From an uncultured Methylococcaceae bacterium (GTDB lineage Bacteria > Pseudomonadota > Gammaproteobacteria > Methylococcales > Methylomonadaceae), in the NCBI GenBank assembly GCA_903945375.1, contig CAJAVP010000005.1:1-39848 (forward strand): a stretch of 39,848 bases of DNA, written 5' to 3'. The notes beneath the pieces are model-generated. The model was not told the origin of the DNA and searched no databases. It saw only the letters and a list, made by a program, of their open reading frames with translations. This document shows positions 1 through 5,124 of the stretch, in pieces (the stretch's first letter is position 1; the number at the start of each line of letters is the position of its first letter). Position numbers and translations under genes: made by a program.

Positions 1-294
1 CTTTATCATGACGGACGGCTTCAGCGTTTACCGCATTTTCCCCAAACGGTTGCGCTGTTGGGCGCATTTGATCCGCAAAGCCCGGGCACTTCATCAAAGC
101 TTAGACCTTGGTGACCAAGACTTTGGAAGTAATTTATTGCTGGTACTGACGTCAGTAGTCGTGTCGTTGCTCTACTTGCGAGCGTCATAGGTTCTGCCCG
201 TTTAAGGCAAGTCAACCCTTGGTCATTTATCGCCCAAGCTGTTGCAAACCGTCGTAAAAACTTGGCTGTGCCGGTATTGACTATGCTGGCTTGA
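1..294 (+). pseudogene. IS66-type transposase, C-terminal remnant
   Basis: Broken 3' end of a transposase gene entering from the left edge. From position 2 one frame reads a catalytic-core stretch containing MTDGFSVYR and RLRCWAHLIRKARAL, as in IS66-family transposases, then loses homology and stops at 190. The family C-terminus (VVALLASVIGSARLRQ, then NPWSFIAQAVANRRKNL) continues in a different frame and ends with the stop at 292-294. At least one frameshift, and probably an internal deletion, separate the halves, so no active enzyme is made. Family assignment is from memory of IS66 C-terminal motifs. The rest of the element lies outside the window. No terminal inverted repeat was recognised downstream. 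Confidence 0.75.
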
Positions 295-678: not shown

Positions 679-1536
679 TCAACAGGACTTTAAGCGCTCA
701 ATGATGCCATCTAATTCTTCCAAACTAGCATAGGCGATAACCAGTTTACCGATACCTGTTTTCTTATGATCGATATGAACTTTAGCACCCAGTTTTGCCG
801 TCAATTCATCCTGTAAACGCACTGTATCATGATCGATTATTTTTTCTTTAGATACTTTAGGCTCGGCTTGCAACTCTTTAACTAAACGTTCAGCTGCTCT
901 TACCGTCATGGCCTCCTTAGCAATTTTATTGGCAGCGGCTACTTGCCTCGCACTATCTAGCGATAACAATGCGCGGGCATGTCCCATATCCAACTGCCGA
1001 CTAATCAATAACGATTTAACATCGCCATGCAAATCCATCAAACGCAATAAATTGGTTACCGTAACGCGCGATTTACCGACGGCTTCTGCAACTTGTTGGT
1101 GAGTCATTTCAAACTCATCCAATAAGCGTCGCAAGGCTTCCGCCTCTTCCAGTGGATTTAAATCCTCACGCTGAATATTTTCAATTAAGGTTTGCGCCAT
1201 GACCGTTCTATCATCTAACTCCCTGATAATAACCGGCACATCTTGTAAACCTGCGAGTTGAGCCGCTCGCCAACGTCGCTCGCCAGCCACAATCTCATAT
1301 TTATCGTGCCCAACTTTTCTGACAATAATGGGCTGAATAATCCCCTGCGCTTTAATAGAATCCGCAAGCTCTTGCAGTTTTTCTGGATCAATATCCTTAC
1401 GTGGTTGATACTTGCCGCGTTGTAAATATTCAATTGGCAGGCTTTGCTGCTGATTTTGTGGCGTGTCTTCTTTCGCTGAGACATCACCCAAAAGAGCGTC
1501 CAGCCCTCGTCCTAGTCCTCGTTTTTGTACTGACAT
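679..1536 (-). CDS. parB: Chromosome partitioning protein ParB
   Basis: ParB loads onto parS sites near the origin as a CTP-dependent DNA clamp and, with ParA, segregates the chromosome. The 285-residue length is normal for chromosomal ParB. The N-terminus carries the ParA-contacting peptide KRGLGRGLDALL (residues 5-16). The CTP-binding fold holds GERRWRA (85-91) and ENIQR (119-123), followed by a helix-turn-helix around THQQVAEAVGKSRVTVTNLL and a C-terminal dimerisation segment ending SLEELDGIIERLKSC. It is the last gene of the mnmG-rsmG-parA-mini-parB-parB run, the usual near-origin order in gammaproteobacteria apart from the inserted small gene. No consensus parS palindrome was noticed in the window. 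Confidence 0.97.
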   Translation of the reverse strand: MSVQKRGLGRGLDALLGDVSAKEDTPQNQQQSLPIEYLQRGKYQPRKDIDPEKLQELADSIKAQGIIQPIIVRKVGHDKYEIVAGERRWRAAQLAGLQDVPVIIRELDDRTVMAQTLIENIQREDLNPLEEAEALRRLLDEFEMTHQQVAEAVGKSRVTVTNLLRLMDLHGDVKSLLISRQLDMGHARALLSLDSARQVAAANKIAKEAMTVRAAERLVKELQAEPKVSKEKIIDHDTVRLQDELTAKLGAKVHIDHKKTGIGKLVIAYASLEELDGIIERLKSC

Positions 1537-1582
1537 TAGATTTTTCTCAGTGGGTCAATTAGCAATAACAAAGATGACGGGC

Positions 1583-1825
1583 TTATTCAACTTGCGGTTT
1601 AACATGAATGCTTGCTTCAATCTCGTTAATTAATTCGAGTAACGCCTCCGCTTCAAACAACAAACTCGTTTTTTCTTGTTGTAAGTGATAAGACCGCTCC
1701 GTAGATTGAATAACGTACGATGGTGCTAAGGTTTGCTCACCGCCTGCTATTGATGTATCAGCTAACAATACCTCAAGCCCTCTACCTAAACCTCGTTTAT
1801 TTAATGTCATGCGTTCACTTTTCAT
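1583..1825 (-). CDS. Small protein repeating the ParB N-terminal ParA-contact motif
   Basis: An 80-residue protein between parA and parB. Residues 7-16 (TLNKRGLGRGLEVLLAD region) nearly duplicate the start of the neighbouring ParB (KRGLGRGLDALLGD), the segment known in ParB/Spo0J proteins to stimulate ParA ATPase. The CTP-binding and helix-turn-helix domains are absent. The rest is a linker and a predicted helix (LLFEAEALLELINEIEASIH) that could pair with itself. Its ATG lies inside the parA 3' end, an 11-base overlap, which suggests translational coupling; an internal ATG at 1810 is the alternative start. It could be a ParA modulator or a decayed parB duplicate. The intact reading frame favours a functional gene. 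The function is inference. Confidence 0.75.
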   Translation of the reverse strand: MKSERMTLNKRGLGRGLEVLLADTSIAGGEQTLAPSYVIQSTERSYHLQQEKTSLLFEAEALLELINEIEASIHVKPQVE

Positions 1826-2579
1826 GGTTAATCATTTCATTTGCCAAAGCCATATAAGCCAAAGCACCACGGGACGATTTGTCATAACTTAAAACCGGCA
1901 AGCCATGACTGGGCGCTTCTGCCAAGCGAATATTTCTGGGCACACAGGTTCTAAATACTTGATCGCCAAAATAACGAATTAATTGCTCAGAAACATCTTT
2001 AGTCAAGCGATTACGGTCATCAAACATTGTTCGCAAAATACCTTCCAGATGCAATTTTGGGTTAACGGTATCTTGAATATTTTTAAGCGTTGACATCAAT
2101 GCCGATAAACCCTCCAACGCATAATACTCACATTGCATAGGGATTAATAAACTATCGGCCGCTACCATGGCATTGAGCGTCAACATATTCAATGAAGGAG
2201 GACAGTCAATTAGCAGATAATCGTAATCGGGTTTACTGGGCAATAACGCATCAGCAAGACGCAATTCCTTACGATCCGCTTTCATTAATTGCACTTCTGC
2301 GGCGGTTAAATCCGCATTACCCGGAATTACCGAAAAGCCAAATTCAGGTAATAGAATAGCGGTTTCTGAAGCCGGTACGGATTCCATCAATAAGTCGTAG
2401 CTGGAGTAGCGAATGGTTTCTTTATCAACCCCACAGCCCATTGCCGCATTACCTTGTGGATCAAGATCCACCAATAAAACTCGACGTTTTAAAGCCGCTA
2501 ATGAAGCGGCTAAATTGACACTGGTTGTTGTTTTACCTACGCCACCTTTTTGATTAGTGACCGCTATTATTTTTCCCAC
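1815..2579 (-). CDS. parA: Chromosome partitioning ATPase ParA
   Basis: ParA/Soj is a deviant-Walker ATPase that binds DNA nonspecifically as an ATP dimer and is released by ParB, driving segregation of origin regions. The protein starts MGKIIAVTNQKGGVGKTTTS, with the signature-lysine P-loop at residues 11-17, and holds the switch segment LLIDCPPSL. I choose the GTG at 2579 because AGAGG lies seven bases upstream and the product then starts exactly at the family's N-terminus (254 residues). The longer ATG frame from 2624 would add 15 unrelated residues read from rsmG. The start overlaps the rsmG end by 13 bases, and the 3' end overlaps the small ParB-like gene. Confidence 0.96.
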   Translation of the reverse strand: MGKIIAVTNQKGGVGKTTTSVNLAASLAALKRRVLLVDLDPQGNAAMGCGVDKETIRYSSYDLLMESVPASETAILLPEFGFSVIPGNADLTAAEVQLMKADRKELRLADALLPSKPDYDYLLIDCPPSLNMLTLNAMVAADSLLIPMQCEYYALEGLSALMSTLKNIQDTVNPKLHLEGILRTMFDDRNRLTKDVSEQLIRYFGDQVFRTCVPRNIRLAEAPSHGLPVLSYDKSSRGALAYMALANEMINHEK

Positions 2580-3253
2580 GAAATAACCTCTGTTGTCGCC
2601 AGTGACGCTATCCGGATCAGGCATCGTTCTGCTTCAACGCCTGGAACACTGACAGGTATAACGGTTGTGTTTGCCAATATAGATGCAGGAAGCTCGATTA
2701 ATTCGGCTTCCGAAGATTGTCCTTTCATTGCAAGCAATTGCCCGTCTTTGCCTAATAGGTGAGCGGTTAATTTAATAATTTCAGCTAGGCTTGCAAAAGC
2801 CCTAGTTAGCACCGTACTAAAAGCCAATTCAGGATGATAATTCTCAACGCGCTGATGACAGACGTGGACATTATGGAGCTTTAATTCTAAAACCACCTGC
2901 TGAACAAAGCGGGTTTTTTTAGCATTACTATCCAACAATGTAAACTGACAATTAGGCAGGCAAATAGCCAGCGGAATTCCCGGCAATCCCGCACCAGTCC
3001 CAATATCAATAACGTGATTACCCTCAATAAACGGAAGAATTGCCAAGCTATCTAATAAATGCAAGCCAATCATGGTTTCCTTATTGCGAATTGCCGTTAA
3101 ATTATAGGTCTTATTCCATTTTTCCATTAACTGCACATAATCAAGTAATTGCTGGATTTGTGAAGTCGATAAGTTTAAATGTAATGCCTCAAGCCCAACA
3201 TCTAATAGCAATCGACACGTTTCAGTGTGAATTGAAATGAATTGATTATCCAT
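2567..3253 (-). CDS. rsmG: 16S rRNA (guanine527-N7)-methyltransferase RsmG
   Basis: RsmG (GidB) uses S-adenosylmethionine to methylate N7 of G527 in 16S rRNA. At 228 residues it is slightly longer than the E. coli enzyme. The SAM-binding loop is visible as VIDIGTGAGLPGIPLA (residues 81-96), with the family segment EKWNKTYNLTAIR before it and VLTRAFASL after it. It lies directly downstream of mnmG, sharing one base in a TAATG overlap, and upstream of parA. This order is conserved near the replication origin in many bacteria. Expression is probably coupled to mnmG. Confidence 0.96.
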   Translation of the reverse strand: MDNQFISIHTETCRLLLDVGLEALHLNLSTSQIQQLLDYVQLMEKWNKTYNLTAIRNKETMIGLHLLDSLAILPFIEGNHVIDIGTGAGLPGIPLAICLPNCQFTLLDSNAKKTRFVQQVVLELKLHNVHVCHQRVENYHPELAFSTVLTRAFASLAEIIKLTAHLLGKDGQLLAMKGQSSEAELIELPASILANTTVIPVSVPGVEAERCLIRIASLATTEVISWEK

Positions 3254-5124
3254 TAAGCTGATTTTTTCTTTAAATAAACCAGCAACAATGAAATAGCCGC
3301 TGGGGTAATGCCAGGAATTCGAGAGGCTTGGCCTAAGGTTTCTGGACGCTGTGATTTTAACTTTTCGCCGACTTCATTTGATAAGCCGGGGATATTTTGA
3401 TAATCCATCGATTCAGGCAATTTGAGATGATCATAACGCAAGGATTTGTCAATTTCTGACTGCTGCCTAACAATATAACCGGCATATTTTGCCTGGATTT
3501 CAACTTGCTCCGCAACATCCTCAGCAATACCATCGCCCGCTTCATAAAAACCAAGTAAATGGGCGACATCGACTTCAGGTCGACGGAGCAATTCCATTAA
3601 ATTGGCTTCTTTCAATAACGGCTTACCCCAAATCGTTTCGACTTGGACGGCTTCATCCGTCTCTGCCCGTATCCATTGTTTTTTTAAACCATCCTGCAAG
3701 GTATCAATCGCCGCACGTTTGCGAGTAAATGCTTGCCAACGTGCGTCGTCAACCAAACCCAACTCCCGACCTTTTTCTGTCAATCGCAAATCCGCATTAT
3801 CTTCCCGTAATAACAAACGGTATTCAGCACGACTGGTAAACATGCGATAGGGTTCTTGCGTACCGCGCGTGATCAAATCATCAATCATAACGCCCATATA
3901 CGCCTCATCACGGCGTGGACACCAACTGTCTTGACCTTGCGCTAAACGGGCAGCATTTAAGCCCGCGATCAAGCCTTGTGCGGCGGCTTCTTCATAACCT
4001 GTTGTGCCGTTAATTTGCCCGGCAAAAAACAAGCCGTCCATCAACTTAGTCTCCAAAGACATTTTTAAATCACGCGGATCGAAAAAATCATACTCGATGG
4101 CATAACCGGGACGGACAATCTCCGCATTTTCAAAACCCAACATGGAACGGACAAACGCATATTGCACATCAAACGGTAAGCTAGTCGATATGCCGTTAGG
4201 ATAAATTTCATGCGTATCCAAACCTTCCGGTTCAACAAAAATCTGGTGGGTATCTCGATCAGCAAAGCGGACTACTTTATCTTCAATAGAAGGGCAATAG
4301 CGCGGCCCGATGCCTTCAATAATACCGGAATACAATGGTGAGCGATCTAAACCCGCCCGAATAATATCGTGAGTTTTCGCATTAGTTCGAGTGATATAGC
4401 AGGGAATTTGTGTAGGGTGTTGTTCGCGCTTACCCATGAAAGAAAATACGGGCACGGGCTCATCGCCGTGTTGTTCCGCCAATTTGCTAAAATCAATCGT
4501 GCGTCCATCAATACGAGGCGGCGTACCTGTTTTTAAACGATTGATACGAAACGGTAATTCACGCAAGCGTTCCGCTAGACCAATCGATGCCGGATCGCCC
4601 GCACGTCCACCGCTATAATTTTCCAGACCAATATGGATTTTACCCGCTAAGAAAGTACCAGTAGTCAATACCACCGCACCAGCGGAAAAATCCAAGCCCA
4701 TTTGCGTCTTTACGCCAACAACTTTACCGCCTTCAACAATCAAATCAGAGGCAGTTTGCTGAAATAAAGCCAGGTTAGGTTGATTTTCTAAAGCAAATCG
4801 AATGGCTTGTTTATACAGCCTGCGATCCGCTTGTGCGCGAGTCGCACGAACCGCTGCACCTTTACTGGCATTGAGTGTGCGAAACTGAATCCCACTGACA
4901 TCTATCGCTTTAGCCATGATGCCACCCAACGCATCAATTTCCTTAACCAAGTGCCCCTTACCAATACCGCCTATCGCCGGATTACAGCTCATTTGCCCCA
5001 AGGTTTCGATATTTTGCGTCAGCAATAATGTTTTTACTCCACAGCGAGCCGCTGCTAATGCAGCTTCAGTGCCCGCATGACCTCCCCCAATGACGATTAC
5101 ATCAAAATTTTTTTTGAATTTCAC
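3253..5124 (-). CDS. mnmG: tRNA uridine-5-carboxymethylaminomethyl modification enzyme MnmG
   Basis: MnmG (GidA) works with MnmE to place carboxymethylaminomethyl groups on wobble uridine 34 of certain tRNAs, using FAD, NADH and methylenetetrahydrofolate. The 623 residues match the family length. The FAD-binding Rossmann motif [19 protein letters not shown] starts at residue 11, followed by the conserved [20 protein letters not shown] region and the C-terminal helical domain that contacts MnmE and tRNA. It is the first gene of the minus-strand origin-proximal operon. The 63-base gap to the divergent gene at 5188 must contain the promoters of both. Confidence 0.97.

Follow-up and report, generated by a model that had tools for sequence, protein, structure and literature searches.

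A short gene between parA and parB in the window (the whole analysed stretch of 39,848 nucleotides from an uncultured Methylococcaceae bacterium) encodes a mini-protein that is, judged by sequence, a ParB paralogue without the CTP-binding core and the DNA-binding and dimerisation domains. It retains the ParA-contact peptide and the α3–α4 segment of ParB (ParB residues about 97–144) and looks like a purpose-made regulator of the ParA motor, not a dying gene. On balance we favour the view that this parB-derived protein pairs by a coiled coil, holds two ParA peptides and acts on ParA without CTP or parS.

The genes are ordered rsmG, parA, mini-protein and parB on the minus strand, the gene ahead of parA being presumably rsmG. 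parA (1815–2624, minus strand; Pfam AAA_31, 3.9e-61; ParA of PDB 8ray, E 1e-81) lies directly upstream of the mini-protein gene, and full-length parB (679–1536, minus strand; Pfam ParB_N, HTH_ParB and ParB_C) directly downstream. The original prediction of an intact, open frame of 80 residues between them (1825–1583, minus strand) was confirmed, and KRGLGRGL is, as it stated, identical in the mini-protein and in ParB, near the N-terminus of each. Its start at 1825, inside parA, is not favoured by the relatives, which point to the ATG at 1810, just beyond the end of parA; beginning at 1825 instead would add five residues. The likeliest gene therefore spans 1583–1810 (minus strand, 75 residues plus stop), and its product begins with MTLNKRGLGRGLEVLLADTS. 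In most relatives the start lies 3 or 4 residues ahead of KRGLG, a position held here by ATG 1810, and starts were assigned by rule to the nearest ATG. In 35 of the 97 genomes checked, no more than one or two codons of open frame precede the chosen start (38 such frames in all, less three that lack a start codon in the stretch), so that the start is forced in those genomes. A 4-nt overlap with the parA stop (ATGA) occurs in 60 of 92 operonic relatives compared, row G143, an artefact of parsing, being left out of this count, and in 91 of 92 the start falls within −35 to +12 of that stop. For the window mini-protein no family was found in Pfam or NCBIfam (E up to 1) or in PHROGs (E up to 0.1), and, judged by titles and abstract starts, none of the papers listed in literature searches, in which subscription papers were mostly not covered, deals with such a protein. 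Downstream of parB, where the contig has its edge, positions 1–190 (plus strand) hold an IS66 transposase fragment (Pfam DDE_Tnp_IS66, E 9e-5, just under the cut-off).

The ParA-contact peptide KRGLGRGLEVLL (residues 5–16; 1763–1798, minus strand) matches residues 5–16 of the window's ParB (1489–1524, minus strand) by sequence comparison. Residues were counted in an alignment of 97 distinct mini-proteins with 83 distinct ParBs. Because these 97, which also served for dN/dS and heptads, had been picked by a GxGxGx motif, the presence of (L/F/I)G(K/R)G(L/F/I) in the window protein and all 97 is circular, and the search was repeated by profile alone. This added 12 distinct forms, of which 10 have the motif and two (L058, L129) have the middle Gly of LGRGL replaced. 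Leu8, Leu12, Leu15 and Leu16 are retained in 97/97 mini-proteins and Arg10 in 95, with Lys in the other two. They correspond to L11, L15, L18, I19 and R13 of Myxococcus xanthus ParB, for which passages of PMC12462528 report from mutations that the four hydrophobic residues are needed for ParA binding and the arginine for ATPase stimulation. The contact peptide that had been predicted is thus present with the side chains that matter in those passages. A state specific to the mini-proteins is Glu13 (95/97), where ParB has Asp in 78 of 83. On the side of ParA we found no covariation of the binding pocket, since the residue aligned with E117 of M. xanthus ParA, termed invariant in a passage of PMC12462528, may be Q, E, K, N or another whether or not the genome has the mini-protein. 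The ParBs of Methylomonas (L193–L206) carry GLGRGLSELLG in place of GLGRGLDALLG.

By its sequence the mini-protein is not a canonical ParB, as three defining features are absent. CTP box I (GxxQP) is found in 0/97 mini-proteins versus 83/83 ParBs and box II (GERRxRA) in 0/97 versus 82/83, while box III (ENxQR), whose E119, N120, Q122 and R123 are invariant in the 83 ParBs, persists in a single mini-protein. The parS-binding HTH domain is missing, with no residue of the 97 aligned past ParB residue 142, and so is the C-terminal dimerisation domain; the window protein has no Pfam match to either. The predicted lack of the CTP clamp and of the DNA-binding domain is supported.

The original prediction located the likeness to ParB in the N-terminal peptide, which stands, but this is not the sole match, as the C-terminal helix is ParB-derived too. 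A profile of 22 relatives, run against 177,635 PDB sequences, had ParB (6t1f/7bm8) as its best match (sequence E 6e-6, stretch E 1.3e-4), in which both pieces align collinearly within residues 1–150 and the middle is passed over. The C-terminal half of the profile (positions about 21–73) matches parB frames with E 5e-10 to 4e-9 among the matches listed. Homology outside the N-terminal peptide is also present when a profile of 56 short forms, trimmed of their N-terminal part, is compared with 151 distinct ParBs without their first 20 residues: the best i-E is 1.2e-12, most often over ParB residues about 97–144, and the controls (reversed ParB, shuffled ParB and ParA) reach 220 or worse. Read from these alignments, the helix is ParB's own α3–α4 and not an acquisition from outside. 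The forms also make up a size series from 139–160 residues grading to 63–80, and several long forms of the Crenothrix group (g13) still have a ParB N-terminal domain that can be recognised as far as α4. Pfam ParB_N was found in 2 of 21 members scanned (best E 1e-17), and L082 has a PHROGs ParB-like match (1e-12); Foldseek with the low-confidence model of a 147-residue form returned no meaningful match. Ten forms bearing the N-terminal domain make one clade within the family ParBs (100/100), and because its placement beside Crenothrix/g30 ParBs is weak, gene conversion or a second duplication may have taken place there. That the long forms of the Crenothrix group arose separately and later is less likely, as the shared truncation point, the tail and Glu13 argue for a single origin.

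Intact mini-protein frames occur in 109 genomes, 108 in the family and one (G288) in another family. In the 108, the gene lies between parA and parB in 100, beside parA only in one (G088, whose contig ends there) and as an orphan in seven Methylomonas genomes. The window protein readily matches relatives within its own genus, in which 19 of 20 genomes have the mini-protein; in the twentieth (G010) neither it nor parB was found. Many matches of the 22-row profile, which hit at least 209 of 237 family genomes at E ≤ 0.001, are ParB itself, and frames were therefore checked. Matching contigs include those of Methylobacter, Methylovulum, Methylomonas and Crenothrix, and four loci of other groups (L079, L081, L083, L084) showed full ParB only. 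Among 30 parB loci of genomes that at first seemed to have no mini-protein, the ParB motif lies at most 82 nt from the parA end in 27, which leaves no room for it, and the remaining three do carry it (L160, L161 and L173, the latter being the 63-residue copy of G012). A search of 369 genomes across the class (E ≤ 1e-8), which would miss a form that evolved independently and carries a different helix, returned the window's own frame as the sole short match, the others lying in frames of at least 290 residues, i.e. ParBs. In the order-wide search (311 genomes, E ≤ 1e-6) 23 genomes from outside the family were among the matches listed; only G288 (7e-17) goes beyond the ParB level, the others being judged by score at 6.6e-8 or weaker. 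No tblastn match at E 0.01 was obtained in plasmids (query, one orphan form) or phages (query, the window form). In G006 (L026/L045) about 600 nt extra separate the mini-protein from parB and contain an open frame of 107 residues without a Pfam match at E 0.1.

The frames are under purifying selection. In 37 disjoint pairs, selected by a greedy procedure on dS that does not guarantee sister species, pooled dN/dS comes to 0.112 in the peptide, 0.556 in the fast-evolving linker (1721–1762, minus strand) and 0.228 in the helix (1604–1720, minus strand), and it is below one in 36 of 37 pairs, the exception being 1.20 at a dS of 0.06. Of these pairs 32 entered the parA/parB control and 29 were usable, giving 0.043 for parA and 0.062 for parB. 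Within ParB the first 18 residues gave 0.048, the linker 0.253 and the N-terminal domain 0.037, so that selection acts on the mini-protein but is looser than on the adjoining genes, and looser on its helix than on the ParB N-terminal domain (0.23 versus 0.037). Orthologues in close relatives and a dN/dS well under one, two points on which the original prediction could have failed, thus came out in its favour. Its alternative of a decayed parB duplicate was right about the duplicate, which has been remodelled, and not about the decay. A decaying copy without function would agree with the large deletions, with the several family genera that have no mini-protein gene and so manage without it, and with G100, which lacks it though its genus has it. 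However, intact frames in 109 genomes, the pooled dN/dS values with 36 of 37 pairs below one, new conserved states foreign to ParB and intact copies persisting at orphan sites largely refute the pseudogene reading, which we regard as very improbable.

A tree of ParA plus ParB (146 rows) confines the operonic form to one clade of 103 rows (SH-aLRT 99; 95 with and 8 without), and in an inner clade of 93 rows the mini-protein is present in 92. The tree covers a chosen sample by a quick method with long-branch warnings (L207 included), and it omits loci L061–L085, mostly named duplicates, and identical pairs. One gain and a few losses fit this distribution. The seven orphan copies of Methylomonas adjoin tRNA-Arg(CCG), and the orphan loci in this genus are L075 (2983–3204), L073, L121, L124 and L130–L133; at L075, which is from Methylomonas sp. 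LW13, a CRISPR-like repeat array, recognised by eye, ends just upstream. The orphan of G288 (L155, about 1505–1783, minus strand) may start at a GTG preceded by a purine-rich site and stands directly behind a gene that we take to be rapZ-like. In all eight orphan hosts (the seven Methylomonas and G288) the ParB motif starts 17–34 nt beyond the parA end, and in G288 parA adjoins parB. Seven other Methylomonas genomes with the same neighbourhood have no mini-protein within 1.5 kb. Horizontal transfer of the lone mini-protein gene is the simplest reading of these orphans.

The helix has been altered in comparison with ParB residues 113–142 (1111–1200, minus strand), its counterpart in the window. 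The proline between α3 and α4, as placed by the alignment, is lost in 97/97 mini-proteins; position 128 is Leu in 86/97 and Leu, Ile or Val in 97/97, where ParB has Pro in 66/83; and positions 145–146, Thr-His in ParB, are mostly hydrophobic. Residues of α4 are kept (Glu131 in 97/97, Leu135 in 96/97, Leu138 in 92/97). One common heptad register applies to 91 of 97 mini-proteins, six favouring another, and the pattern beats shuffles (p < 0.05) in 66/97 versus 6/83 ParBs, 31 mini-proteins falling short. In the window helix the signal is borderline (shuffle p 0.05), with Lys at 'a' residue 125 and Ser at 118. Asn, which at an 'a' position generally favours parallel pairs, is found at 'a' in 44/97. 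For the window protein AlphaFold2 gives one continuous helix over residues 31–69 (mean pLDDT of the model 68, pTM 0.38), with block means of 59 for residues 31–40 and then 85, 95 and 88 over 41–70, the former α3–α4 joint lying near residue 50; the linker has low pLDDT. In the 147-residue form the helix covers 99–146 with block means of 79 to 98 in a model of mean 60, the old CTPase core being of low confidence. The α3–α4 segment is thus predicted to be rebuilt as a single continuous helix.

These observations can be arranged into a probable history. parB would have been duplicated in tandem between parA and parB in the ancestor of a large methanotroph clade, and the paralogue then truncated right after α4, with loss of the DNA-binding and C-terminal dimerisation domains. 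The CTP-binding boxes would have decayed and the CTPase core been deleted in most lineages, while selection would have kept the ParA-binding peptide, a floppy linker and α3–α4 fused into one amphipathic helix. That helix could still meet its parent: α3 and α4 are swapped between ParB subunits on clamp closure, α3 packing on α4 of the other subunit (stated in passages of PMC8367383), so that a protein whose helix stems from there might pack into the N-terminal gate of full-length ParB, forming mixed dimers or blocking closure. We consider such a modulator of ParB quite improbable, since box III is not conserved in the mini-proteins, the proline of the α3–α4 loop is gone, the helix is predicted to be continuous and the most constrained part is the ParA peptide.

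We propose instead, in line with the original prediction of a dedicated ParA modulator, that ParA is the target, and we infer dimerisation, ParA binding and the sign of the effect as follows. Two copies would pair via the helix as a coiled coil, which would keep two ParA-binding peptides permanently together. In ParB this juxtaposition arises when CTP and parS close the clamp, and it stimulates the ATPase considerably more strongly, according to passages of PMC12462528; the paired mini-protein would be a permanent mimic of that closed clamp without CTP or parS. With its peptides always paired, it would bind the ATP-bound ParA dimer anywhere in the cell and would either trigger the ATPase or occupy the ParB site, and the retained arginine favours stimulation over mere competition with ParB. 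The DNA-bound ParA pool or gradient would then be trimmed independently of partition complexes. The mini-protein, a paralogue derived from ParB, may thus function in the manner of an ATPase-activating partner of ParA. The most specific version, a diffusible, always-closed ParB mimic that activates ParA independently of CTP, parS and DNA and whose gene has moved between lineages, has in our estimate somewhat less than an even chance. An ordinary ParABS system appears to be present in the same genome, as contig C78 (G000) carries two parS-like palindromes 53 bp apart (3522–3537 and 3575–3590), one of them perfect and the other with 1 mismatch; in the window no parS-like site was found within 2 mismatches. 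The search used the canonical parS consensus.

The peptide might also serve for docking on ParA while the helix binds another partner (pole, membrane or cargo), which would be carried along the ParA gradient or would recruit ParA. PadC, a ParB relative that recruits ParA to bactofilins as described in part of PMC12704722, is a precedent for such an adaptor, and the broad conserved face of the helix (128, 129, 135, 138, 139 and 142) could serve a partner. We think this unlikely, as the Pfam scan of 21 members gave only ParB_N in two and two weak single matches, the usual neighbours are parA and parB, and the two orphan sites have no neighbour in common.

In comparison with known systems, the mini-protein shares with chromosomal ParB/Spo0J (PDB 6t1f/7bm8, 1vz0) the N-terminal LG-R/K-GL motif, the α3–α4 segment and a gene beside parA, and its longest forms still show the ParB_N domain, but it differs in having no intact CTP boxes, HTH or C-terminal dimerisation domain and in the predicted fusion of α3 and α4 into one helix. 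ParG binds DNA, and MinE binds the membrane and MinD. These small activators of ParA/MinD ATPases resemble the mini-protein in size and in a basic N-terminal activating segment (partly after passages of PMC12462528), and in the dimeric state if our dimer holds; in contrast, the mini-protein descends from ParB, and no module for DNA or membranes is known in it. The ParB1–20 peptide, an in vitro ParA ligand in the same passages of PMC12462528, has the four hydrophobic residues and the arginine at identical spacing, whereas the mini-protein occurs naturally as the product of a gene and adds a helix through which it might pair. PadC, Noc and orphan ParB-like proteins are likewise ParB relatives with new jobs, and PadC also has a ParA-binding motif, but they retain the CTPase fold that the mini-protein has lost (after passages of PMC12704722).

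If the most specific version is true, these methanotrophs have a second means of switching off the ParA gradient, one that acts freely. In the picture drawn in passages of PMC12462528, clamp closure effectively limits contact between ParA and ParB to partition complexes, and a clamp-free carrier of ParA peptides would break this limit. The graded forms would show a route from a CTPase switch to a constitutive adaptor, and the mini-protein opens the question of how chromosome segregation responds to a diffusible ParA switch.
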